Shown one piece after another: positions 2,099-13,543 of a DNA stretch of 64,000 nt. A program made the translations under genes and the position numbers. Below the pieces are notes generated by a model. It saw only the letters and a program-made list of their open reading frames with translations, was not told the DNA's origin and did no database searches. Every line of letters starts with the position of its first letter. Within the stretch, counting starts at the first letter, position 1. Source of the stretch: Methanococcoides alaskense. Its GTDB lineage: Archaea > Halobacteriota > Methanosarcinia > Methanosarcinales > Methanosarcinaceae. The stretch is taken from the NCBI RefSeq assembly GCF_027594145.1, contig NZ_JAQFFK010000001.1:372001-436000 (forward strand), in the 5' to 3' direction.

Positions 2099-2800
2099 TT
2101 ATGATCTCATCCAGTCATTCCAGGTTCCTGCCTTCATTTCCAGTATATTAGTAATGTCCTCAAGCTGTTCTTCAGGAATACCGATAACCATCTCATCGTC
2201 CTTGAGTCCTGCATTCTTGGCAGCGCCATCACAACCAATAGAGATGTTGACCTCTCCGGTGGTGTATGGTGAACCGGTAGCATCGGCACATGTGGACTGG
2301 ATTCCTGCAAAGTTTGCAGTCATACGACCACCACGTCTATAGATCACTGAATGTGCGATCCTTCTGGCTACAAGGGTGTTTCCGATCACGATAATAACAT
2401 CAGGTCTTGTTGGTGTATTGTCCAGAGGAGCAACGATCGTTGCAACGGTCGATCCGGGGGCAGGTCTTGGCATGTTGTCTACAACACGCTTAGCAACACT
2501 CAGGGATATTTCCTTTCCAAGTTTATCGAAATACAATTCCCCACTTTTGATCTTGTCAGGGTAGTCCTGTAATCCTATGGCTGCAGCACCACCTTTGCAG
2601 GCATGCTCATCCATGGTAGCAAAAGTGACTTTATCATCGAACCTGGCATCCTGAAGCATCTGGCAGTATCTTCTTGGGATCTCTATCTTTTGTAGGTCAT
2701 CCGGAATATCGATTTCCCTTTTTAATAATGATATTGCTACTGGTTTCCCTTTAAGCTCCAGTGTCTCAATAAGCTTCTCACTAATTTTTGTATAATCCAT
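2099..2800 (-). CDS. DUF169 family protein
   Basis: This is a 233-residue protein of the DUF169 family, recognised from the overall sequence, including GKPVAISL near the N-terminus, conserved cysteines (RRYCQML, EHACKGG, STCADATGSPY) and a C-terminal SIGCDGAA. The family is common in methanogens and has no settled biochemistry; the cysteines suggest metal or Fe-S binding. I chose the start at 2800 because GAGGTAATAACATG gives a good ribosome site; a longer frame to 2860 lacks one. It is divergent from the NifX/FsrII cluster and shares its promoter region, which suggests co-regulation. Confidence 0.75.
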   Translation of the reverse strand: MDYTKISEKLIETLELKGKPVAISLLKREIDIPDDLQKIEIPRRYCQMLQDARFDDKVTFATMDEHACKGGAAAIGLQDYPDKIKSGELYFDKLGKEISLSVAKRVVDNMPRPAPGSTVATIVAPLDNTPTRPDVIIVIGNTLVARRIAHSVIYRRGGRMTANFAGIQSTCADATGSPYTTGEVNISIGCDGAAKNAGLKDDEMVIGIPEEQLEDITNILEMKAGTWNDWMRS

Positions 2801-2978
2801 GTTATTACCTCTGGAATTTGTACCTGTATTGGGGATGAAAGTTAATTTATCTCTGTTCATTGCATATCCCCTAATATCTCATATGGGAGTAAATATATAA
2901 GCATTGTGAGAAACTTTTATATACATCCCCTCATGTGAGTATTATATAATAACAAATAACTATGAATGAGGGAATTAT
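2801..2978. promoter_or_regulatory. Divergent promoter region of the DUF169 and NifX/FsrII cluster
   Basis: TATA-like boxes are visible in both directions: TTTATATA at 2916-2923 for the rightward cluster and, on the minus strand, a box at about 2892-2900 for DUF169. Two related dyads lie next to them, CTCATATGGGAG at 2878-2889 and CTCATGTGAG at 2930-2939, and ATGAGGGA at 2966-2973 repeats the half-site. Their placement beside both TATA boxes suggests operators for one shared regulator. This is sequence inference only. Confidence 0.4.
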
Positions 2979-3440
2979 ATGAAGATATGTGTAACAGCCA
3001 CAGATAAAAATATTAGTGCAGCAGTGGATCTACGTTTTGGAAGATGCCCCTACTTTATCCTCGTAGATTCGGAAACTATGGAATTCAAAGCAGTTGACAA
3101 CCCGGCAGCTTCAGCGTCAGGCGGAGCAGGTATACAGGCTGCTCAGAACATTTCTGACAAAGGGATCGATATCCTCCTTACCGGTAGCATCGGTCCTAAC
3201 GCCTTCCCGATCCTTTCTGCAGCCGGAATTCGGGTAATGACAGGAGCCAGTGGTTCAGTTACAGATGCGATCAGTCAGTACAAAGAAGGTCAATTGCAGG
3301 AAACTGGTGGCCCAACAGCACAGGCACATGCATCCATAGCTCCACCTGGCAGAGGAGTGGGTGGACGCAGATCAGGCGGCTCCGGCAGAGGCATGGGAGG
3401 CGGCGGTGGAGCTGGCAGAGGCGGAGGAATGAATCGTTAA
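2979..3440 (+). CDS. NifX/NifB-family (dinitrogenase Fe-Mo cofactor biosynthesis) protein, Gly-rich tail
   Basis: This 153-residue protein starts after GAGGGAATTAT. Residues 1 to about 110 form the RNase H-like NifX/NafY fold typical of small metal-cluster carriers (VDLRFGRCPYFILVD at the start, then GAGIQAAQ and LLTGSIGPNAF). Residues about 118-153 are a Gly/Arg-rich low-complexity tail. Similar tails occur in ORP-like family members of anaerobes. The family carries or shields Fe-S/Mo clusters; since no nitrogenase genes are present here, a role in another metal cluster is more likely. It is first in a same-strand cluster with a second NifX protein and the sulfite reductase. Confidence 0.8.
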   Translation: MKICVTATDKNISAAVDLRFGRCPYFILVDSETMEFKAVDNPAASASGGAGIQAAQNISDKGIDILLTGSIGPNAFPILSAAGIRVMTGASGSVTDAISQYKEGQLQETGGPTAQAHASIAPPGRGVGGRRSGGSGRGMGGGGGAGRGGGMNR

Positions 3441-3463
3441 ATTCAGGACTATGGGGTGATAAG

Positions 3464-3835
3464 ATGAAAATATGTGTACCTTCAAGTAGTAAAGGCGGAC
3501 TCGATGATCTCGTTGGCCAGCATTTTGGCAGGGTCCCGACCTACACCATAAAAGACACTGAAACGAATGAGATTAGAACGATTGAAAATAAAAGTGAACA
3601 TATGGGAGGAGTGGGCCTTCCTCCAGAACTCCTGTCACAGGAAGGAATTGATGTCATGCTTTGTGGGGGACTTGGGGACAAGGCTGTACAGCAGTTCGAA
3701 CAGTTTGGTATACAAGTATATGTTGGTGCCAAAGGAACAGTTGAAGAGACTATAATGGAATGGGAAGCCGGCAAGCTCCCAAAGGCCACGAGTGAAAATG
3801 CCTGCCAGACCCACGAACACCATCACCAACACTGA
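3464..3835 (+). CDS. NifX-family protein with His-rich C-terminus
   Basis: This 123-residue protein begins 23 bases after its paralogue, behind a GGGGTGATAAG ribosome site. It has the same fold signature (VGQHFGRVPTYTIKD, LLSQEGIDVMLCGGLGDKA). It ends in a metal-binding tail with one Cys and several His (CQTHEHHHQH), in place of the Gly-rich tail of the upstream protein. I infer that it binds or delivers a metal (Cu, Zn, Ni or a mixed cluster) for the neighbouring Fe-S enzymes. The two distinct tails suggest a division of labour. Confidence 0.8.
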   Translation: MKICVPSSSKGGLDDLVGQHFGRVPTYTIKDTETNEIRTIENKSEHMGGVGLPPELLSQEGIDVMLCGGLGDKAVQQFEQFGIQVYVGAKGTVEETIMEWEAGKLPKATSENACQTHEHHHQH

Positions 3836-3861
3836 AAATAACCCGTAAAAACTAAAACGAG

Positions 3862-5790
3862 ATGAGACCAATGTCAGAAGAATATAAATGGTTCTTAAAA
3901 GATGCAGTTGTCGATACCGGAATGTGTACCTTATGCGGTGCCTGCGCTGCGGTTTGCCCCTATGAGATAATCGAATTCGATGAGAACGGACCAAAATTAA
4001 AGGAAGAATGCTACAGGAACGGAGAAGGCGCCTGTAAGGATGTTTGCCAGCGCGTTATGACAGATGCAGCCCGTATCTCAATGAACGTGTTCAATTTCAA
4101 GTCATTGCCTCCGACATCTATCGGTCAGTACCAGAAGATAGTTTCTGCAAGGGCTACAGCTCCGTCAATAGCTGAAAATGGCCAGGATGGCGGAGCGGTG
4201 ACCGCGCTTCTGGGATACTGCTTTGACAATGGTCTCATCGATGGTGCTGTTACCACTGCAGGTTTTACAAAACCGGATTCCTGCATTATTACAAGCAAAG
4301 AAGAACTTATGGACACCCAAGGTGCCAAATATTCAGCAGTTCCTGTGATGGCTGCACTACGCCAGAGCAAAGATGAACTGAAAAATGTTGCAATGGTAGG
4401 TGTTCCATGCCAGACATACGGAACCAGAAGGACACAGTTCTTCACAGGTCTGAACGTCCACCCGATGGAAGTCGGAATGAATGGTGAAAAAGCTGACATT
4501 CCAAATATACCATATACGATCGGTCTGTTCTGCATGGAGAACTTTAACTACGAAAAGTTATCCGAGCACATGAAAAGTATAGGTATCGATCTGGACAAGA
4601 TCAAAAAATATGCTATCAGACTTGATGTGATGATCGTAACTACCGATGACGGGGAAATTGAGATCTCCCTGAAGGACATCGCTGATTGTGTATGGGATGG
4701 ATGCCGTATCTGCAGGGATGCTGTTTCCAAAGTTGCAGATATATCAGCAGGACATGTTGGCTCATCTACCGGATGGACCACTTTAATAGCCCGCAATGAT
4801 AAGGGCCTGGAACTTCTTGAAGCAGCAGAAAAAGCTGGATACATAGAGACCGTCGATGATGTCGATATCAGTATGATAGAGGACTTTGCAGCTATCAAGA
4901 TGAGAAAGTTCAACAAAGAGCTTGCTAAGCGTCTTGATGATGGAAAGAAGGTGAACTTCTACTGGGTACGCGATTATCCGGGTGTAAGACCAGAGGCAAA
5001 TGGTACGAATTTCGTGAAGATAAAAACGAACTCCGGTATCGTACAGCATGATTACATTGCCAGGGTTGCTGAACTTGCAGAGAAGTACGGTGACGGTAGC
5101 CTTGAGCTTACCTCCAGAAAGAGCGTTGAGATACAGGGTATCAAAGGCGAAAATGTCGATAGCCTGATGGCCGATGTCTATGGCAGTGGTCTCAAGACCA
5201 TTGGAATGGGTTATGCTAATGCCTGTCCGGGAATGGATTACTGTCCTGAGGGACTCGTTACTACTAAGGATCTTGCAAATGAACTCACAATGCAGTTCGC
5301 CCAAAAGCTCACACCCCACAAGATGAAGATCGGTGTGGCCGGATGTCCGAACAGCTGTGTAAGAGCAGAGAGCAATGACATTGGTATTGTAGGTCAGCTC
5401 CGTCCGAAGATCGATACGGAGAAATGTACAGGATGCGGAAGATGCAGTGAATTGTGCAAACTAAATGCTATCTCTGTGATCTCAGGAAAAGCTGTCATCG
5501 ACAGGGACCTCTGCATCAACTGTGGATGGTGTGTCCGTGGTTGTCCACATGAAGCAGCTGTTGAAGACGAGAGAGGTTATTCTTTATGGATCGGCGGTAA
5601 CGATGCAAGAAGACCAACAAATGGTGTTCTTCTGAAGGCATTCTGCACAAAAGAGGAGATCCCTGCCCTGATAGATAAGGTTGGTAAGACCTTTGTCAAA
5701 TACCGAACCAAACCTGGAAAAGAAAGACTTGGTAACATCATTGCACTGGTAGGGGAAGGTCAGTTCATCAGTGAAGTTCTGAAAGAATAA
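3862..5790 (+). CDS. fsr: F420H2-dependent sulfite reductase-like fusion (Fsr group II type)
   Basis: This 642-residue cytoplasmic fusion has an N-terminal 4Fe-4S ferredoxin motif (C22, C25, C28, C32) and a FrhB/FpoF-type F420H2-oxidising domain to about residue 350. A siroheme sulfite/nitrite reductase half follows, with the paired motif C455-x5-C461 and C495-x3-C499 that binds the coupled siroheme-4Fe4S centre. Two further clusters (C522/525/528/532 and C551/554/557/561) sit in an inserted ferredoxin domain. It resembles Methanocaldococcus Fsr (sulfite to sulfide with F420H2). Group II homologues of Methanosarcinales and ANME are thought to prefer other substrates such as nitrite, so the in vivo substrate is open. 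A second ATG at 3871 is a possible start. A hairpin terminator follows the gene. Confidence 0.85.
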   Translation: MRPMSEEYKWFLKDAVVDTGMCTLCGACAAVCPYEIIEFDENGPKLKEECYRNGEGACKDVCQRVMTDAARISMNVFNFKSLPPTSIGQYQKIVSARATAPSIAENGQDGGAVTALLGYCFDNGLIDGAVTTAGFTKPDSCIITSKEELMDTQGAKYSAVPVMAALRQSKDELKNVAMVGVPCQTYGTRRTQFFTGLNVHPMEVGMNGEKADIPNIPYTIGLFCMENFNYEKLSEHMKSIGIDLDKIKKYAIRLDVMIVTTDDGEIEISLKDIADCVWDGCRICRDAVSKVADISAGHVGSSTGWTTLIARNDKGLELLEAAEKAGYIETVDDVDISMIEDFAAIKMRKFNKELAKRLDDGKKVNFYWVRDYPGVRPEANGTNFVKIKTNSGIVQHDYIARVAELAEKYGDGSLELTSRKSVEIQGIKGENVDSLMADVYGSGLKTIGMGYANACPGMDYCPEGLVTTKDLANELTMQFAQKLTPHKMKIGVAGCPNSCVRAESNDIGIVGQLRPKIDTEKCTGCGRCSELCKLNAISVISGKAVIDRDLCINCGWCVRGCPHEAAVEDERGYSLWIGGNDARRPTNGVLLKAFCTKEEIPALIDKVGKTFVKYRTKPGKERLGNIIALVGEGQFISEVLKE

Positions 5791-5800
5791 GTGGAATGAA

Positions 5801-5827
5801 AGACCCCCTATGGGGGATCTTTTTTTC
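5801..5827 (+). terminator. Hairpin with U-run after fsr
   Basis: Arms AGACCCCC and GGGGGATCT pair around TAT with one bulged A, immediately followed by seven T. It lies between the fsr stop and the CDF gene, so it probably ends the NifX-NifX-Fsr transcript or attenuates read-through into the downstream genes. Confidence 0.65.
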
Positions 5828-5856
5828 TTGCTTGTTTATTATTAGGTGAACCAAAT

Positions 5857-7092
5857 ATGGCTGTAAAAGAAAAACTCCGATTGGGTGTGAAGGCTTCAAA
5901 GAACTCTACCATTGCACTGGTTTTTCTTGCAGCAATAAAAGGTACGGTAGGGTTTTATTCAGGAAGCTCTTCTCTGATCGCAGATGCTATCCATACATCA
6001 ATGGATATCTTTACATCTCTTGCAGTGTGGATAGGGCTAAAGCTAAGCTTGAAAAGTAGCGGGGAACAGTTCCATTATGGTTACTACAAAGCAGAGAACC
6101 TTGTGGCTCTTTTTGTCTCAGTACTTATTTTATTATCCGGGGTTGAACTTGTCCGTGGGGCCCTGAAAAGTATAAAGGACCCTATTGAGCTGGAACATCA
6201 GGGACTGGCGCTTGGAGCGGCGGTGTTCTCTGTAATTACTATCTATGCCCTTTCACAGTATAAGTTCAAAATAGGAAGACAGATAGGTTCACAGGCATTG
6301 ATCGCAGATGCTACTCATTCGTATACAGATGTATTTAGTTCCATTATCGTTGTTGTTGCTATTACCGGTTCGATGTTTGGCATACACTGGCTTGACGGTG
6401 TCGGGGTTCTTGTTATATCGTTGATTATCTTCAAGCTTGGGATCACAACAGCAAAGGAATCCGCACTGACCCTGATGGATGCATGGCTAGACAATGATTC
6501 TCTCGAACGTATCCGACGTTCAGTGAACCATATTCCCGGTGTTAACAAGGTAGATGAGATCAGGCTCCGAAGATCAGGCCTTGTGGTATTTGGGGAGATG
6601 CAGGTAGAAAGTGCAGGAGAATACGACCTAAAGATCGTGGAAATGCTTTCCGTTGAGATAGAAGAAGCGGTTAAAAGTGAGATCCCAAATCTGGAACATA
6701 TTTCAGTCGATGTAAAACCCGGAAAAATATCCGTGCTCAAAGTTGCGATTCCTGTAATGATACCGGAGGGATTGCAGTCGAAGCTATCCAGACATATCGG
6801 AAAAGCTCCCTATTATATTTTCATCGAGCTGAAAAACAACAAAATAATGAGCTGGGATATTGGTGAGAACCCTGCTGCTGATCTTGAGCGAAAAAGAGGT
6901 GTAAAGACAGCGGAGTACCTGGAAGAACAGGGTGTTAATATTGTCATCGTAAAAGATATCGGGGAAGGTCCATTCCACAAATTCCATGACAGCTTTATCA
7001 AACTATTAGAGATGCCGGATGATGTGGAGGATGTTGAAACACTTATTGGGAAGATCCCTGAGCTGAGAGTGATCACCGCTCCTACAGAGTAA
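5857..7092 (+). CDS. Cation diffusion facilitator fused to a C-terminal NifX-like domain
   Basis: This 411-residue membrane protein has a CDF transporter at residues 1 to about 200. Its metal-site motifs SSSLIADAIHTSMD and ADATHSYTD lie on helices 2 and 5. The cytoplasmic CDF dimerisation domain spans about 205-285. From about residue 289 a NifX-family domain begins (KISVLKVAIPVM, SRHIGKAPYYIFIE, EYLEEQGVNIVIV). CDF proteins export Zn, Fe, Mn, Co or Ni in exchange for protons. The NifX domain could sense or pass on the metal or cluster. It lies between fsr and two MinD/ferredoxin ATPases on the same strand. The fusion shows that transport and the NifX chemistry belong together. Confidence 0.85.
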   Translation: MAVKEKLRLGVKASKNSTIALVFLAAIKGTVGFYSGSSSLIADAIHTSMDIFTSLAVWIGLKLSLKSSGEQFHYGYYKAENLVALFVSVLILLSGVELVRGALKSIKDPIELEHQGLALGAAVFSVITIYALSQYKFKIGRQIGSQALIADATHSYTDVFSSIIVVVAITGSMFGIHWLDGVGVLVISLIIFKLGITTAKESALTLMDAWLDNDSLERIRRSVNHIPGVNKVDEIRLRRSGLVVFGEMQVESAGEYDLKIVEMLSVEIEEAVKSEIPNLEHISVDVKPGKISVLKVAIPVMIPEGLQSKLSRHIGKAPYYIFIELKNNKIMSWDIGENPAADLERKRGVKTAEYLEEQGVNIVIVKDIGEGPFHKFHDSFIKLLEMPDDVEDVETLIGKIPELRVITAPTE

Positions 7093-7120
7093 TATAATTT
7101 GAGAATTGGAGAACATGAAA

Positions 7121-7975
7121 ATGAAAATTGCGATAGCAAGCGGAAAAGGTGGAACAGGCAAGACAACAGTTGCAGTAAATCTTGCACTTTCCCTAAAGAA
7201 TGCACAACTGTTCGACTGTGATGTGGAAGAACCTAACTGCAATCTGTTCCTTGGGTATGATCTTGAGAAAGTCGAGGATGTAAATGTTCCGACACCTGTT
7301 GTTGATAAGAATAAGTGTGACCTTTGCGGCAAATGTTCTGAGTTTTGCCAGTTCAATGCCCTTGCCGTTTTGCCTGAAGATGTAATGATCTTCCCAACAC
7401 TCTGCCATGGATGTGGTGGATGCACTATTGTATGTCCGAATGAAGCTATCAGCGAGGTGGACAGGAAAGTCGGAGTCATCGAAGGTTCGGTAAATGAAGA
7501 ACTCGTGTTCTATAGGGGACTGTTGGATATAGGGGAACCCATGACATCACTTGTGATCAAGGCCCTGCAGGAGCATATCGATAAGAATGCGACTGCCATC
7601 ATCGATGCACCTCCAGGTACTGCCTGCCCGGTCATTGCTTCAGTGAAAAATGTCGATTACTGCATCCTTGTGACCGAATCGACACCCTTTGGGTTCCATG
7701 ACCTGAAGCTTGCTCTTGATGTTATGAAGATACTGGGAATACCTTTCGGCGTGGTGATAAATCGATGCGATATCGGTGACAACAGGGTGGAAGATCACTG
7801 TATTAAAGAGGGGATCCCGATCTTGATGAAGATCCCTTATGATAGGGAGATAGCAAAGTTGTATTCGCAGGGCATTCCCTTTGTTAATGAGATGCCGGAG
7901 TGGAAGGACAAATTTCTCAGGCTTTTCCGGGATGTTACTTTACTCTCTAAAATGAAGGATCGTCCTGAACAATGA
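7121..7975 (+). CDS. MinD/NBP35-type P-loop ATPase with inserted double ferredoxin domain
   Basis: This is a 284-residue protein. A deviant Walker A (SGKGGTGKTT) lies at the N-terminus. Two 4Fe-4S motifs are inserted at about residues 65-110 (CDLCGKCSEFC and CHGCGGCTIVC). Later motifs are IIDAPPGTACPV (Walker B/switch II) and a typical MinD C-terminus. The family is found beside NifX/ORP proteins in anaerobes and is thought to assemble or insert metal clusters. I take the start as ATG 7121, 9 bases after GGAG; ATG 7115 and TTG 7106 are alternatives. A close paralogue lies at 8362. Confidence 0.85.
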   Translation: MKIAIASGKGGTGKTTVAVNLALSLKNAQLFDCDVEEPNCNLFLGYDLEKVEDVNVPTPVVDKNKCDLCGKCSEFCQFNALAVLPEDVMIFPTLCHGCGGCTIVCPNEAISEVDRKVGVIEGSVNEELVFYRGLLDIGEPMTSLVIKALQEHIDKNATAIIDAPPGTACPVIASVKNVDYCILVTESTPFGFHDLKLALDVMKILGIPFGVVINRCDIGDNRVEDHCIKEGIPILMKIPYDREIAKLYSQGIPFVNEMPEWKDKFLRLFRDVTLLSKMKDRPEQ

Positions 7976-7993
7976 TCAAAGGAGTTGATATTA

Positions 7994-8326
7994 ATGGTAA
8001 AGATCGGATTAGTAAGATGTGAAATGGCCTCCAGGTCCTGTCCGGGTACTTCCTGTTTTAAGGCGATAAAGAATGGGACAGGTACACTTGAAGAGTTCAA
8101 GGATGAGGTGATCGACATCATTGGCATGGTCACATGCGGAGGATGTCCGGGAAGAGATTCGATTAGACAGATCAGGGAAATGATAAGGAGGGGAGCTGAA
8201 GTGATATTCCTTTGCACCTGTATGATAAAACCGATCCCTAACCCGCCTAAGTGCCCTTATGCTGAAGAAATTGCAGAAGCGATCAGGGATATGTGTGATG
8301 TCAGGGTCATCATGGGAACACACTGA
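7994..8326 (+). CDS. CGGC-domain protein (putative metal-binding)
   Basis: This 110-residue protein carries the signature VTCGGCPGRD and further cysteines (RCEM, SCPGTSC, CTCM, PPKCPY), matching the CGGC domain family of unknown function. The high Cys content fits metal or cluster binding. ATG 7994 follows GGAG by 9 bases; a TTG at 7985 would be too close. It is sandwiched between the two MinD/ferredoxin ATPases and probably co-transcribed, so it is a likely client or partner of them. Confidence 0.75.
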   Translation: MVKIGLVRCEMASRSCPGTSCFKAIKNGTGTLEEFKDEVIDIIGMVTCGGCPGRDSIRQIREMIRRGAEVIFLCTCMIKPIPNPPKCPYAEEIAEAIRDMCDVRVIMGTH

Positions 8327-8361
8327 TGTTTCCCGAAATATTTTGAGATTGGAGAAATAAC

Positions 8362-9234
8362 ATGAAACAGCTTACTATAATAAGCGGAAAAGGTGGCACA
8401 GGAAAGACTACTATTGCAGCAGCGTTTGCTTCGCTTGCAGAAAATGCTGTGATAGCTGATTGTGATGTGGATGCAGCCGATATGCACCTGATATTGAATC
8501 CGGAGATAATTGAAACAATAGACTTCTATGGTCTGAAGGAAGCCTATATTGATAGCTCCCTATGCATTCAATGTGGACTGTGCAAAGAGAATTGCAGGTT
8601 CGATGCAATTACTGATGATATCAAGGTCGATAGCTTCGAATGTGAGGGCTGTGGAGTATGTGCTCACATCTGTCCTGAAGGAGCTATAACGTTGGTCGAA
8701 AGAAAAGCAGGAGAAGCCTATCTTTCTGAAACCAGATTCGGACCGATGGCACATGCAAAGCTCAGTGTAGGAGAGGAAGCAAGTGGTAAACTGGTAGCGT
8801 TTGTAAGGGAAAAGGCCAGAGACCTTGCTGATAGATATGACAAAGAACTGATAATCATCGATGGTCCTCCTGGAACAGGGTGCTCTGTTATTGCTTCCAT
8901 TACCGGTGTTGATATGGTTGCAGTCGTAACCGAACCCAGCGTATCAGGAATTCATGATCTCGAACGGGTTCTGAGCGTAGCCGGCCACTTTAATATTCCG
9001 GCTGTGGTCTGCATAAACAGGTACGATATAAATGAAGAGAACACTCGCTTCATTGAAGATTATTGCAGGGATAACGGGATCGATGTTGTAGGAAAAATTC
9101 CTTTTAGCCGAATTCCGACCGAGGCAATGATCCAGGAAAAAACGGTGATGGAATATTCAGGTAATGAATTGTCAGGCGAGTTTTCAGAAAAACTAAATGA
9201 TATTTGGGAAAGCGTTATGAAAAGCCTGAACTGA
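8362..9234 (+). CDS. Second MinD-type ATPase with inserted double ferredoxin domain
   Basis: This 290-residue paralogue of the 7121 gene starts after GGAGAAATAAC. Walker A is SGKGGTGKTT. Two 4Fe-4S motifs (CIQCGLCKENC, CEGCGVCAHIC) lie at about residues 68-110, and IIDGPPGTGCSV follows. Tandem pairs of such ATPases are characteristic of ORP-type loci, where they may form a heterodimer. It is last in the rightward cluster; the convergent nadA follows. Confidence 0.85.
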   Translation: MKQLTIISGKGGTGKTTIAAAFASLAENAVIADCDVDAADMHLILNPEIIETIDFYGLKEAYIDSSLCIQCGLCKENCRFDAITDDIKVDSFECEGCGVCAHICPEGAITLVERKAGEAYLSETRFGPMAHAKLSVGEEASGKLVAFVREKARDLADRYDKELIIIDGPPGTGCSVIASITGVDMVAVVTEPSVSGIHDLERVLSVAGHFNIPAVVCINRYDINEENTRFIEDYCRDNGIDVVGKIPFSRIPTEAMIQEKTVMEYSGNELSGEFSEKLNDIWESVMKSLN

Positions 9235-9254
9235 AACATTTCCATGCTTCAGGC
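9224..9254. terminator. Inverted repeat between convergent genes
   Basis: GCCTGAA (9224-9230) and TTCAGGC (9248-9254) are perfect 7-bp arms spanning the stop of the MinD-type ATPase gene. The position between convergent genes suggests a terminator, but there is no strong T-run. Confidence 0.35.
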
Positions 9255-9271
9255 CATGCTTTCATATAATT

Positions 9272-10192
9272 TCACATAGTGCGTTTGACTGCAAGCATCC
9301 TGTCAAGCGCTTTCTTTGCTTTAAGCCTTGTATCTTCAGGTACAGTGATAACATACTGCATGTTCTCAAGAGCATCGAGGACGGATTCAAGAGTTGTTAT
9401 CTTCATGTTCGTACAGATGGTGAACTCGGAGACATAATAGAACTTCTTTTCCGGATTCTCTTTACTCAGCCTGTGAAGGAGTCCGTTCTCCGTACCTATG
9501 ATGAATTCCTTTGCATCGGACTTCTTTGCATAGTTCAACATACCGGTTGTGCTCAACACCTCATCAGCAAGGTCCAGAACTTCTGTGCGACATTCGGGGT
9601 GTGCCAGGAACAGTGCATCAGGATGTCCCTCTTTTGCTTTAATTACGTCATGGGCACGCATCTGGTGATGTGTGGGACAGAACCCATCCCATGCGTAGAT
9701 CTTCTTGTCCGTGAAACCTGCAACATAGTTTCCGAGGTTCTTGTCCGGGACAAAGATCACCTCATCTTCCTCAAGAGAGTTCACCACATCGATGGCATTG
9801 GCTGAGGTGCAGCAAATATCACTCTGTGCTTTTATCAGTGCAGATGAGTTCACATAGCACACAACAGCAGCATCAGGGTGTTTCTTCTTTTCATCATCAA
9901 GGGATATGACATCGACCATCTCAGCCATGGGGCACCCTGCTTCCTTTTCAGGAAGGAGCACTGTCTTTTCCGGACTGAGGATGGCCGCACTCTCCCCCAT
10001 GAAATCAACACCACAGAATACGATCACATCTGCATCCGAATTGACCACCTGCTGGCTCAATCCCAGGGAATCGCCTGTAAAATCTGCAATGTCCTGCACT
10101 TCGGGACGTTGATAGTTATGAGCAAGAATAACTGCATTAAGTTCTGTTTTTAATTTATTGATCCTTTCAATGATCTCTTTCATGTCCTGCAT
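9272..10192 (-). CDS. nadA: Quinolinate synthase NadA
   Basis: This 306-residue enzyme condenses iminoaspartate with dihydroxyacetone phosphate to quinolinate in NAD synthesis. It uses a 4Fe-4S cluster bound by three conserved cysteines. Family motifs are visible: [49 protein letters not shown] and a late TICTNMK. The start at 10192 follows GGTGAG; a longer frame to 10216 is less likely. No nadB/nadC neighbour is present. It is convergent with the MinD cluster and divergent from the copper chaperone gene. Confidence 0.93.
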
Positions 10193-10307
10193 ATTCTCAC
10201 CATGTAAATATCGCATATTGAGCTATATCAATCTTACCTAAATTTTATATAATTTATTTAATTTTATCGTCGTAGTCTATTTAGATCAAATAAGCGATAA
10301 TACGTTA

Positions 10308-10324
10308 TGTTAACACTGTTAACA
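10308..10324. promoter_or_regulatory. Perfect 17-bp dyad, candidate operator between nadA and copZ-like gene
   Basis: TGTTAACA and TGTTAACA flank a single C; the arms are exact reverse complements. It sits in the 234-bp divergent intergenic region. A closely matching dyad (TTAACAATGTTAACA) lies upstream of the peroxiredoxin gene at 29736-29750. Confidence 0.4.
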
Positions 10325-10426
10325 GACGATTGTAGATATTTGTTACTTTAAGTAATTAACGGCAGCATAAAATATTGCATAAGTATAAATTATTGTAAAA
10401 CCCTCTTAATTTTGGGAGTGAAATAA

Positions 10427-10630
10427 ATGGTAGAGACCAAAATAAAAGTTGAAGGCATGTCATGTGGACATTGCAAGATGCATGTTACAGAAGCAATATC
10501 TGGGGTTGCAGGAGTTTCATCCGTAGATGTCGATCTCGACAAAGGTGAAGCTAAAGTCTCCTATGATGAAAATGCAACGGACATCGATGCTATTAAAAAA
10601 GCTGTGAACGATTCCGGATACAAGGCTTAA
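10427..10630 (+). CDS. Heavy-metal-associated domain protein (copper chaperone, CopZ-like)
   Basis: This 67-residue single HMA domain has the metal motif GMSCGHC near residue 11 and the usual ferredoxin-like beta-alpha-beta pattern ending in NDSGYKA. It would carry Cu(I) to the CopA ATPase encoded just downstream. GGGAGTG precedes the ATG. A terminator hairpin directly after it suggests partly independent, higher expression than copA. Confidence 0.9.
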   Translation: MVETKIKVEGMSCGHCKMHVTEAISGVAGVSSVDVDLDKGEAKVSYDENATDIDAIKKAVNDSGYKA

Positions 10631-10661
10631 GGCCTTATCTTTTTATTATTTTTTTATGCTG
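10622..10661 (+). terminator. Hairpin plus T-rich tract after copper chaperone
   Basis: AAGGC (10622-10626) pairs with GCCTT (10632-10636) and is followed by a T-rich tract to about 10656. The hairpin overlaps the stop codon. Confidence 0.55.
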
Positions 10662-10714
10662 CACGATAAGCAGTATTTCAGACAGAAATATCCTATTAAC
10701 AATGGTGCAACAAC

Positions 10715-13543
10715 ATGGAAGCTAAGATAGATGTTCTTGGAATGACATGTATGCATTGTCATGAGAGGGTTACAAAAGCCATCTCCTCGCTTGAAGGCGT
10801 GGAAAGTGTCGATGTAAGTCTTGAAGAGAACAATGCGACCGTCATTTTCGATCCTGAAAAGGTCAGCCTTGAAGAGATCAAACAGGCAATTCTCGGTTTA
10901 GGTTATGAGGTAGGGAAGAATGATAATTCTGGAATCCCGGATGATCTGGCAGAGGACACAGAAAAGAGCGAAATGGGGGACACGGTCGATGCAGAGGGTA
11001 AAAGCACGGTACATTCAGCACCCGTTGAGCTTCTTAAGAAGAATGATGAGAAAGCAACTGAGGCAGCAGCTAAGAAGCCTGTGGAAACTACGTTGAAAGT
11101 TACAGGCATGACCTGTGCTGCCTGTGCTATTCGCATAGAAGATGCCCTGAAGAAACAACCCGGTGTGCTATCTGCAACGGTCAACCTTCCTCTTGAGAAA
11201 GCTTCTGTCACTTATGATCCACAGCTATTCACAACGGACAAGCTGGAAAAAACAGTTGAAGATACCGGGTATGGGATACTTAAAGATGAGATGGCCTTTG
11301 ATGTTGGGGGTATGACATGTGCTGCCTGTGCCACAAATATTGAACGTGCCCTCAAGAAGCTTGATGGCGTAAGCGATGCAAGTGTGAACTTCCCCATGTC
11401 CACTGCACGTGCCAAATATGATCCCGACAAGGTTTCAGCAGCAGATATGCTCAAAGCCATTGAAGAAATAGGTTATACCGCATCTGTGAAAACGGAAGGA
11501 AGTCCTCTTGATCGCGAAAGAGCTGCAAGGGACACGAAGATGACACATCAGAGGAGCAATCTGATCATTGCCGTTCTGCTTACCATCCCGATCGCCCTTG
11601 GAGGAATGAGTGCAGGATTTCCACAATATCTCTATTTTGTCCCACCCATATTTGCCGACAGGATGGTACTTTTCATCCTTACGACCATCGTAATGGCCTT
11701 CCCTGGACGCCAGTACTTCGTTGGTGCCTATAAGGGTCTGAGACATGGTTCTGCTGATATGAACCTGCTGATAGCCACCGGTACCGGTGCTGCATATACT
11801 ATCAGCGTGGTTACCAGCTTCATTGATCTTGGACCAGGATACCAGCACACTTTCTTTGAGACGGCTGCCATGCTGATCACTTTCATAACGTTCGGCCGCT
11901 ACCTTGAAGCAAAGGCAAGGGGCAGGACATCCGAAGCTATCAGGAAGCTCATAGGGTTGCAGGCAAGGACTGCACGTGTGATAAGGAACGATGAAGAGAT
12001 CGAAGTGGCTGTGGAGGATGTTGTTGCAGGTGACATCGTAGTTGTCAGGCCTGGTGAAAAACTTCCAGTAGATGGTGTCGTTGTGGAAGGAACATCTTCA
12101 ATAGATGAATCCATGATAACCGGTGAAAGCATCCCTGTGGAGAAGAATGCCGGAGATACTGTAATAGGTGCAACGGTCAATGCCACGGGTTCCTTTAAGT
12201 TCAAGGCTACCAAGGTGGGCGCTGATACAGCACTTGCACAGATAATCAAGCTTGTGGAAGATGCCCAGACATCAAAAGCACCCATTCAGAGAGTAGCGGA
12301 CTTTGTGGCTGGAAGGTTCATCGTTGCCGTAATTACGATCGCTGTCCTCTCATTCCTGTTCTGGTTCTTTATCGGGTACGGTCTATATGATGTTGGCCAG
12401 TATTCAGTGATATCCAGTCCGTTCCTGTTCTCACTTCTTATCGGTATAACAGTTCTTGTGATATCCTGTCCCTGTGCTGTAGGGCTTGCGACACCTGTGG
12501 CTATCATGGTAGGTACCGGTAAAGGCGCTGAGAACGGTATTCTCATCAAAGGCGGCGAAGCGCTTGAGGTAACCCGGAAGATAGGCACCATAGTGTTCGA
12601 TAAGACCGGCACCCTCACCGAAGGAAAGCCGGTGCTCACAGACGTGATGACATTTGGTGATCACTCAAGAGATGATGTCCTCTCTCTTGCAGCAACGGCT
12701 GAGAAGGGTTCGGAACATCCACTTGGTGAGGCTATCGTAAATGGGGCTGTGGATGGGAATGTTGATATACTGGATACCACCGAATTCGATTCAATTCCGG
12801 GTCACGGAGTCACTGCTACCATCGATGGACGGAAAGTACTTCTTGGCACCCGCAAGCTCATGGCCGATAACAATGTCAATGTATCCGGCATGAGTGACGA
12901 TCTTGAAGAGCTTGAACATCAGGGCAAGACCGCCATGCTGGTCTCAGCCGATGGTGATGCTATTGGTATCGTTGCAGTTGCCGATACCCTGAAAGAGAAC
13001 TCAGTTCAAGCTGTTTCCAAACTCAGGGATATGGGAATTGAGGTCGTGATGATGACCGGTGATAACAGCAGGACAGCATCTGCCATAGCTTCGGAAGCTG
13101 GTATCGACCGTGTTCTTTCCGAAGTGTTGCCTGAAGACAAAGCGGCTGAGGTGAAGAAGCTTCAGAAAGAGAACAAGATCGTTGCAATGGTCGGTGACGG
13201 CATCAACGATGCTCCTGCACTCACGCAGGCAGACGTTGGTATTGCCATGGGTGCCGGAACAGATGTGGCCATGGAATCCGCACAGATAGTGCTTATCAGG
13301 AACGATCTCCTTGATGTTGTGGCCTCACTGAAGTTAAGCCGGCTTACCATGAGGAAGATCAAGCAGAACCTGTTCTGGGCTTTCGGATACAATAGTCTTG
13401 GTATTCCAATAGCTGCAGGAATTCTATATCCTGTGTTCCATCAGGTACTTGTCACTCCGGCAATGGCAGCAGCGTTCATGGCTATGAGCTCTGTCTCGGT
13501 TGTGACGAACTCCCTGCTGATGAAGAGAAGCAGAATAAAATAA
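10715..13543 (+). CDS. copA: Cu(+)-exporting P1B-type ATPase with three N-terminal HMA domains
   Basis: This 942-residue membrane ATPase has three HMA domains with CxxC pairs at C12/C15, C134/C137 and C202/C205. An unusual acidic/Lys/Ala-rich linker (about residues 70-120) separates the first from the second. The transport motif is CPC (C585-C587), the phosphorylated Asp is D629 in DKTGT, TGES marks the actuator domain and GDGINDAP the hinge. It exports Cu(I). It sits 84 bp after the chaperone gene, forming a copper-homeostasis pair. Three HMA domains is more than the one or two usual in prokaryotic CopA. Confidence 0.94.

Follow-up and report, generated by a model that had tools for sequence, protein, structure and literature searches.

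Described relatives of the Methanococcoides locus

An eight-gene cluster occupies positions 2099–9234 of a 64,000-nucleotide stretch of the Methanococcoides alaskense genome (contig NZ_JAQFFK010000001.1, positions 372,001–436,000, forward strand; the whole stretch is called the window). Its component genes are of known kinds. IssA of Pyrococcus furiosus consists of a NifX domain and a basic tail rich in glycine and aromatic residues (14 aromatics in 70 residues), stores thioferrate and donates Fe-S units to ferredoxin; MTH1175 is called IssA-type, and an uncharacterised mesophilic clade, IssX, has a Gly-rich tail of high isoelectric point (pI) (PMC5524996). IssA homologues were reported in 110 of 132 Methanosarcinales genomes (PMC8351635), and growth on pyrite raises two IssA homologues of Methanococcus voltae (PMC8516115, PMC9431491).

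The window cluster resembles the ORP locus of Desulfovibrio (Orp3, Orp4, Orp8, MrpORP) in its divergent layout, its small NifX-fold proteins, and a pair of related proteins that each have two 4Fe-4S motifs (PMC6345978). This likeness, pointed out in the first-pass annotation of the window, is supported. The ORP locus contains MrpORP, an Mrp-NifX fusion, whereas the window cluster has none; in this genome, which is incomplete, a single full-length Mrp was found, a 308-aa frame about 295 kb from the cluster. Orp3 and Orp4 are presumably MinD-type. Beyond the ORP set, the window cluster has a cation diffusion facilitator (CDF), a CGGC protein, a DUF169 protein, and the reductase FsrII.

FsrII (FNiR) has been studied in ANME-2c, a group of anaerobic methane-oxidizing archaea (ANME). 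With F420H2 as donor, nitrite (Km 5 uM) and hydroxylamine are substrates of the enzyme, whereas neither sulfite nor thiosulfate is reduced; siroheme, flavin, and about four [4Fe-4S] clusters account for the purified protein (PMC9295563). FsrII has been detected in ANME metaproteomes, and M. burtonii has FsrII, yet sulfite inhibits its growth (PMC6286981, Yu et al. 2018). The words operon, neighborhood, and flanking are absent from the main text of the ANME-2c paper (PMC9295563). In the mostly open-access literature searched, no paper was found on FsrII together with a NifX/MinD/CDF set; it is this combination, as the first-pass annotation had supposed, that was not found described.

Two separable units are observed in the order: a widespread module of NifX and MinD-ferredoxin genes, usually without Fsr, and FsrII, which is also found alone. 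FsrII occupies the same slot in several lineages of the module. The interpretation that we put forward, tentatively, is that the locus serves to store and deliver iron-sulfur (metal-sulfide) units, as a module of the IssA/ORP kind, and has recruited an F420H2-dependent nitrite or oxyanion reductase. The features of the locus are as follows.

2099..2860, - strand: DUF169 protein (PF02596), 253 aa; open reading frame (ORF) and Pfam
2870..2960, no strand: divergent promoter region; AT-rich TATA-like stretch facing each side
2979..3440, + strand: NifXa, NifX-fold PF02579; basic Gly/Arg-rich tail of 45 residues, starting near 3303
3464..3835, + strand: NifXb, NifX-fold with Cys/His tail; Pfam
3862..5790, + strand: FsrII, FrhB-like F420H2-oxidising half and siroheme reductase half; Pfam and PDB relatives
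5798..5826, + strand: stem-loop and T-tract, terminator- or attenuator-like, between fsrII and the CDF gene
5857..7092, + strand: CDF transporter with C-terminal NifX domain (NifXc); Pfam and NCBIfam
7106..7975, + strand: MinD1, ATPase of the MinD type; two 4Fe-4S motifs inserted (C71, C100)
7985..8326, + strand: CGGC-domain protein (PF08821); Pfam
8362..9234, + strand: MinD2, ATPase of the MinD type; two 4Fe-4S motifs (C68, C94)

All eight genes named in the first-pass annotation are present as ORFs at these coordinates and strands, and Pfam matches each of the families. DUF169 is divergent from seven plus-strand genes separated by gaps of 9–66 bp. The host assembly is 1.97 Mb and 76.6% complete; its CDF-NifX protein is 90–97% identical to counterparts in named Methanococcoides records. 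Judged by relatives' ORFs, the true starts of DUF169, MinD1, and CGGC are probably slightly downstream of those listed. For DUF169 the start is probably M21 (about 2800), which matches the 233-aa form in most Methanococcoides relatives, and for MinD1 it probably lies a few codons 3' of the listed TTG.

FsrII and the NifX/MinD module across the order

The order-wide survey covered 185 genomes, with cut-offs of E up to 1e-100 for Fsr and up to 1e-70 for MinD1 relatives. Fsr matches occur in 46 of the genomes and MinD1 relatives in 106. FsrII and MinD1 lie no more than 10 kb apart in 16 of the 38 genomes that carry both; by simple arithmetic the chance expectation is well below one genome, with the caveat that the genomes are related to one another. 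At least four genomes (G009, G022, G045, G048) are undecidable in this respect because the contig ends at or next to FsrII.

Eighty-six loci were mapped, one of which (L062) was devoid of module genes. The gene order that recurs is NifXa-NifXb-(FsrII)-(CDF+)NifXc-MinD1-(CGGC)-MinD2-(DUF1847-MBL). A gene for an Mrp/NBP35 NTPase is often within the mapped stretch, in many loci divergent from NifXa, and the five copies scanned match PF10609 across the full extent of the model. In genera g1, g3, and g8, FsrII has the NifX genes on one side and NifXc/MinD1 on the other. In family f2 it is located between NifXb and MinD1, with DUF5320, MBL, DUF89, and radical SAM genes interposed. We infer that f2 is ANME-2-like, g8 Methanohalophilus-like, and g5 Methanohalobium-like. 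Within g8, FsrII fills the slot in G111, G114, G113, and G017, and two genomes, G110 and G115 (L099, L100), have NifXa-NifXb-MinD1-MinD2 without it. DUF1847-MBL follows in all six g8 loci, and in five of them the module is preceded by a UROD gene (it was not seen in G113). The module without FsrII is found in many genomes of the order.

Neighbours were examined for 38 Fsr copies taken from 50 listed rows, a copy being called linked when a module gene lies within 6.5 kb. At least one such gene is present for 26 of the 38, three of which (L049, L096, L098) have weak or broken NifX neighbours only. In G013 (L049:3621-5221), the NifXa-like gene near FsrII is split by a DDE transposase gene. G014 (L045/L046) carries two enzymes, one FsrII-type (80%) and the other FsrI-type (36%), neither beside the module, which is located elsewhere (L074) with a 74% DUF169 and Mrp.

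Within Methanococcoides, FsrII is present in eight of ten other genomes. The nine FsrII-bearing loci, including that of the window, all have DUF169, NifXa, and CDF-NifX. MinD1 and MinD2 are found in seven (in one across a contig break; the pair is absent at the locus in G007 and G010), NifXb in five, and CGGC between the MinD genes in five (one partial), so that the complete eight-gene set is present in three of the nine. G002 (L076) retains NifXa, CDF-NifX, MinD1, and MinD2, and lacks NifXb and FsrII. Since gene presence varies in this way within one genus, the eight-gene "system" is a mosaic. The first-pass annotation had proposed to look for conserved synteny of the eight families and had counted scattered genes among the grounds for abandoning the idea. 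The genes are not scattered and the FsrII/NifX/MinD linkage reaches beyond the genus, but the synteny is modular.

A second, UROD-flanked Methanococcoides module (L058, L072, L073) is without FsrII. In a tree of MinD1 and MinD2, it groups with the g8 modules (83/90 support), apart from the FsrII-bearing one. The window's own genome has such a locus, with the order NifXa-NifXb-MinD1-MinD2-DUF1847-MBL, UROD-flanked and FsrII-free (L058:8291-12414; G000:C1 about 20.3–24.4 kb).

In the MinD1 tree, FsrII-linked copies fall in four groups (g1 of the CDF type, g3, g8 of the UROD type, and f2), and g1 and g8, at least, also include copies without FsrII. The FsrII label changes at least 7 times on this tree, counted without a shuffle control and with four contig-end loci (L082, L115, L116, L117) unlabelled; the number is 9 if these are scored as lacking FsrII. 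The FsrII genes of g3 nest inside those of f2, and a single f1 FsrII clade that includes g3 was rejected (p-AU 0.0023). The MinD genes of g3 cluster with f1 modules in the best tree. It is suggestive, not proven, that an f2-type FsrII was transferred into a g3 module, because holding g3 with f2 was not rejected for MinD1 or for MinD1+MinD2 (p-AU 0.097 and 0.080). We read these patterns as FsrII having been gained, lost, or replaced repeatedly at one slot, which is the pattern that selection for joint expression would leave. Recurrent use of a slot is by itself no proof of physical coupling between FsrII and the module.

Protein features and transcription signals

By Pfam, FsrII is composed of FrhB_N/FrhB_C and NIR_SIR domains, and it aligns over its full length with the solved Fsr enzymes 7np8 (1.3e-132) and 9tn7 (5.8e-123). 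It has the FsrII-type architecture, an FrhB/FpoF-like N-terminal half and a siroheme [4Fe-4S] reductase C-terminal half. The oxyanion-site residues Arg356 and Arg424 of FsrI (M. infernus numbering) correspond to K386 and G450 of the window FsrII; numbering was by hand on 9tn7, which we take to be the M. infernus enzyme, and Arg424 lies opposite a gap in the HMMER alignment, so that G450 was counted back from a shared ACPG. The motifs FVKIK and TIGMG are present in all 26 module-linked Fsr copies. The changes Arg356Lys and Arg424Gly are cited for FsrII (PMC13381448, PMC9295563). The ANME-2c and window enzymes thus share the full-length architecture and the Lys/Gly substitutions, and differ in that activity was measured for the former, whereas the Methanococcoides protein is known from sequence.

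NifXa and NifXb are each matched by Nitro_FeMo-Co (PF02579, which we equate with IPR003731). The NCBIfam search (E up to 0.001) gave for the NifX proteins the MrpORP model alone, partial and far under its cut-off. As the first-pass annotation noted, the tails are of two types. The Gly/Arg-rich tail of NifXa, 45 residues by the chosen cut, has a pI of 12.0, 42% Gly, and 13% Arg. It is present in all ten Methanococcoides copies of the locus, and several other genera have basic Gly-rich NifXa tails, whether FsrII is present or not. The f2 tails contain Lys and are mostly near neutral, and in some genera the tail is short. NifXb has a short Cys/His tail; such tails mostly finish with Cys and then His residues, although a few paralogues differ. 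The best solved relative of NifXb is 1t3v, which we take to be a Thermotoga protein.

NifXa has in common with IssA and IssX an N-terminal PF02579 domain followed by a Gly-rich basic C-terminal tail. It differs from them in that its tail is without aromatics, in that its operon contains ferredoxin-ATPases, a CDF-NifX fusion, and FsrII, and in that thioferrate would here be a putative ligand. Our guess is that NifXa is an IssA/IssX-like storage candidate. Iron-sulfur storage is a better guess than Mo-Cu because of the IssA-like domain and tail and the papers on IssA homologues.

The CDF protein consists of Cation_efflux, ZT_dimer, and a C-terminal Nitro_FeMo-Co domain (residues 307–393). Its metal sites are HxxxD (46/50) in transmembrane helix (TM) 2 and HxxxD (154/158) in TM5. 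The same motifs are found in relatives where the pattern could read them; the TM5 pattern often hit TM2 instead, so the TM5 site was read in only part of the relatives. An HxxxD/HxxxD site rules out a Mn-type CDF. The top specific NCBIfam models are MamM, MamB, and FieF, all under cut-off. The CDF fold and the C-terminal dimerisation domain are shared with FieF/MamM-type transporters, whereas the extra NifX domain, and the TM2 His (HxxxD) in place of the FieF Asp, set the window protein apart. L069 and L071 have NifXc at the corresponding position as a separate, unfused domain, and this pattern of fusion and splitting suggests joint working of CDF and NifXc.

In the divergent region, the TATA-like AT-rich stretches toward each side are invariant across ten Methanococcoides loci, including one that lacks FsrII. 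It is plausible to read them as TATA boxes, and shared control of DUF169 and the seven-gene set from this region is likewise plausible. The motif CTCATNTGNG occurs in this region at 2878 and 2930. It is a weak operator candidate because relatives mostly have variants at these positions and three further matches lie elsewhere in the window. The stem-loop 3' of fsrII has five C-G pairs in its core (z -3.05; 2 of 200 shuffles equally good), and a stem with a T-tract is located between fsrII and the CDF gene in all nine FsrII-bearing Methanococcoides loci. A weaker stem and T-tract lie at the corresponding site in G002, which lacks FsrII. All four g3 loci inspected have a T-tract and predicted pairing there, whose significance was not computed. 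The hairpin is conserved, but with little covariation. By analogy with T-tract termination, NifXa-(NifXb)-FsrII is likely to form one transcript unit, with the CDF-MinD part transcribed more weakly; a single uniform transcript is disfavoured because of the hairpin and T-tract after fsrII.

For the remaining genes little was obtained from structure. DUF169 gave no PDB relatives (best E 0.4), and its AlphaFold model is unusable (mean pLDDT 36). The fold search with the CGGC protein gave no match at 0.001 (best E 0.012; model mean pLDDT 76.6). A second DUF169 gene, 38% identical (L059:5219-5899), is immediately upstream of the window, and the two DUF169 genes enclose a CGGC-like gene (41%) in G008 and G009. 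The window gene at 657–1946 encodes a TPR-repeat protein, and among the compared loci the window copy was the sole one labelled as its relative. On the other side (window 9272–13543), NadA adjoins the cluster in all ten Methanococcoides loci that extend that far, and a CopA-type P-ATPase comes next. G008 and G002/L034 have a different ATPase, about 43% identical, at the CopA place, flanked in L034 by two short pieces 85–95% identical to the window CopA. An inverted repeat, GCCTGAA...TTCAGGC, lies at 9224–9254 between the convergent MinD2 and NadA.

Possible functions of the locus

In the proposed storage and delivery module, iron and sulfide would assemble on the NifX domain of NifXa, and the anionic polymer would be held by the cationic tail, as is envisaged from IssA. 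NifXb, with its Cys/His tail, and NifXc may be carrier or sensor domains. The ferredoxin-ATPases MinD1 and MinD2 would draw on ATP and electrons in passing Fe-S units to carriers of the Mrp/NBP35 type; Mrp is linked in relatives and unlinked in the window genome. The CDF, gated by its fused NifX, could export surplus Fe2+ or Zn2+. FsrII would direct F420H2 electrons to the reduction of nitrite and hydroxylamine, as was shown for the ANME-2c homologue, and would thereby remove an agent harmful to methyl-coenzyme M reductase (MCR) and Fe-S enzymes, while being itself a heavy consumer of Fe-S clusters. The gene content, the domain and motif content, the modularity, and the repeated FsrII slot are observed; the chemistry and the reason for coupling we infer.

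Several points weigh against this interpretation. The 45-residue NifXa tail contains no aromatics (F, W, Y). The best solved relatives of NifXa score almost equally, MTH1175 (1eo1) at 7.7e-21 and 78.1 bits and ORP (2wfb) at 2.1e-20 and 76.7 bits. With the aromatics missing and these scores too close to place NifXa in a clade, iron-sulfur storage stays a guess. The TM5 His marks Zn- and Fe/Zn-CDFs, and the TM2 His occurs in Zn-CDFs and some Fe/Zn-CDFs (PMC1868760), so that Zn and Fe are both possible metals. The hairpin and T-tract part fsrII from the CDF/MinD half. Twelve of the 38 Fsr copies, including five from f3/f4 and two from g25, have no nearby module gene, although some of the 12 are on short contigs and one (L046) is FsrI-type. 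Hcp gave no co-occurrence signal, being near universal (179 of 185 genomes). In Desulfovibrio desulfuricans, Ddes_1864-1867 (NifX/MinD-like/ferredoxin/NifX) are strongly repressed on nitrate versus sulfate, with log2 values of -3.6 to -5.4 (PMC5701242), which is opposite to a nitrite-defence role for the NifX/MinD part.

Some of the same observations suit another explanation, in which FsrII is placed behind the divergent promoter as a passenger that answers a common signal (sulfide, iron, or oxidant) but is biochemically uncoupled from the module. Similar operons without FsrII exist in G002, where NifXb is gone too, and in the two g8 genomes G110 and G115; a terminator-like hairpin follows fsrII, and the f3/f4 copies of FsrII are lone. 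The module without FsrII in many genomes, together with this hairpin, also speaks against the single dedicated system of the first-pass annotation. Against it stands the use of the same slot by several module lineages (UROD-flanked g8, CDF-type g1 and g3, and f2), and we regard this explanation as unlikely, though the most serious of the rivals. A direct role of FsrII on the store appears more doubtful. FsrII might mobilise Fe(III)-sulfide (thioferrate) with F420H2 electrons, or convert oxidised sulfur species to sulfide for the store. Thioferrate is ferric, its release in vitro with DTT and its activation by reduction have been described and proposed, respectively (PMC5524996), FsrII adjoins NifX genes, and the natural substrate of the Methanococcoides FsrII is unestablished in the literature found; the known activity, however, is on nitrite and hydroxylamine, and F420H2 does not support the reduction of sulfite or thiosulfate (PMC9295563). 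Extended to the whole locus, the idea becomes one F420H2- and ATP-powered iron-sulfur machine, in which FsrII electrons would mobilise or rebuild the ferric sulfide of NifXa, nitrite activity would be secondary or a trigger, and the CDF-NifX valve would sense metal-sulfide load; this too we consider improbable. We know of no precedent for FsrII acting on an iron-sulfide store.

The first-pass annotation had proposed that the set builds or protects a heterometallic cluster for sulfite or nitrite reduction. On this view the NifX carriers, with the MinD ATPases, would make a Mo-Cu-S cluster like that of ORP, which the siroheme reductase uses or is protected by. NifXa and NifXb are indeed homologous to ORP (2wfb), and paired ferredoxin-motif proteins are also found in orp operons (PMC6345978). 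The characterised FsrII is explained by its siroheme, flavin, and [4Fe-4S] clusters (PMC9295563), FsrII and the module each occur in the absence of the other, and the cluster is without an MrpORP fusion. A heterometallic ORP-type reductase cofactor was therefore rejected, on FsrII cofactors and independent occurrence, and is very improbable. Sulfite as the substrate fares no better, given the inactivity of the ANME-2c enzyme on sulfite with F420H2 and the sulfite-inhibited growth of M. burtonii (PMC9295563, PMC6286981). Least probable of all is delivery of the MCR cofactor F430, in which NifX would shuttle F430 to MCR and the CDF would be a nickel transporter. It was proposed from an ANME-2a protein network (PMC12622379), and in G036 (f2) the contig with the CDF match also carries mcrA, at a distance of about 3.5 kb. 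The distance between mcrA and FsrII is, however, 1.91 Mb in G005 (about 0.67 Mb if circular), 553 kb in G010, and 342 kb in G017. As mcrA is remote in these three single-contig genomes, an mcr neighbourhood is not a shared feature, and F430 delivery was rejected.

The recurrent linkage joins two questions that seem open in the literature found: what FsrII does physiologically, and which partners archaeal IssA-like proteins have. Storage and delivery of iron-sulfur units with a recruited reductase predicts that nitrite defence and Fe-S storage or repair act together in this order. The hypothesis is testable in cultured methanogens because close relatives differ by the presence of FsrII at the operon. 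If true, it would bear on the survival of ANME and methanogens under nitrite or sulfide shifts.

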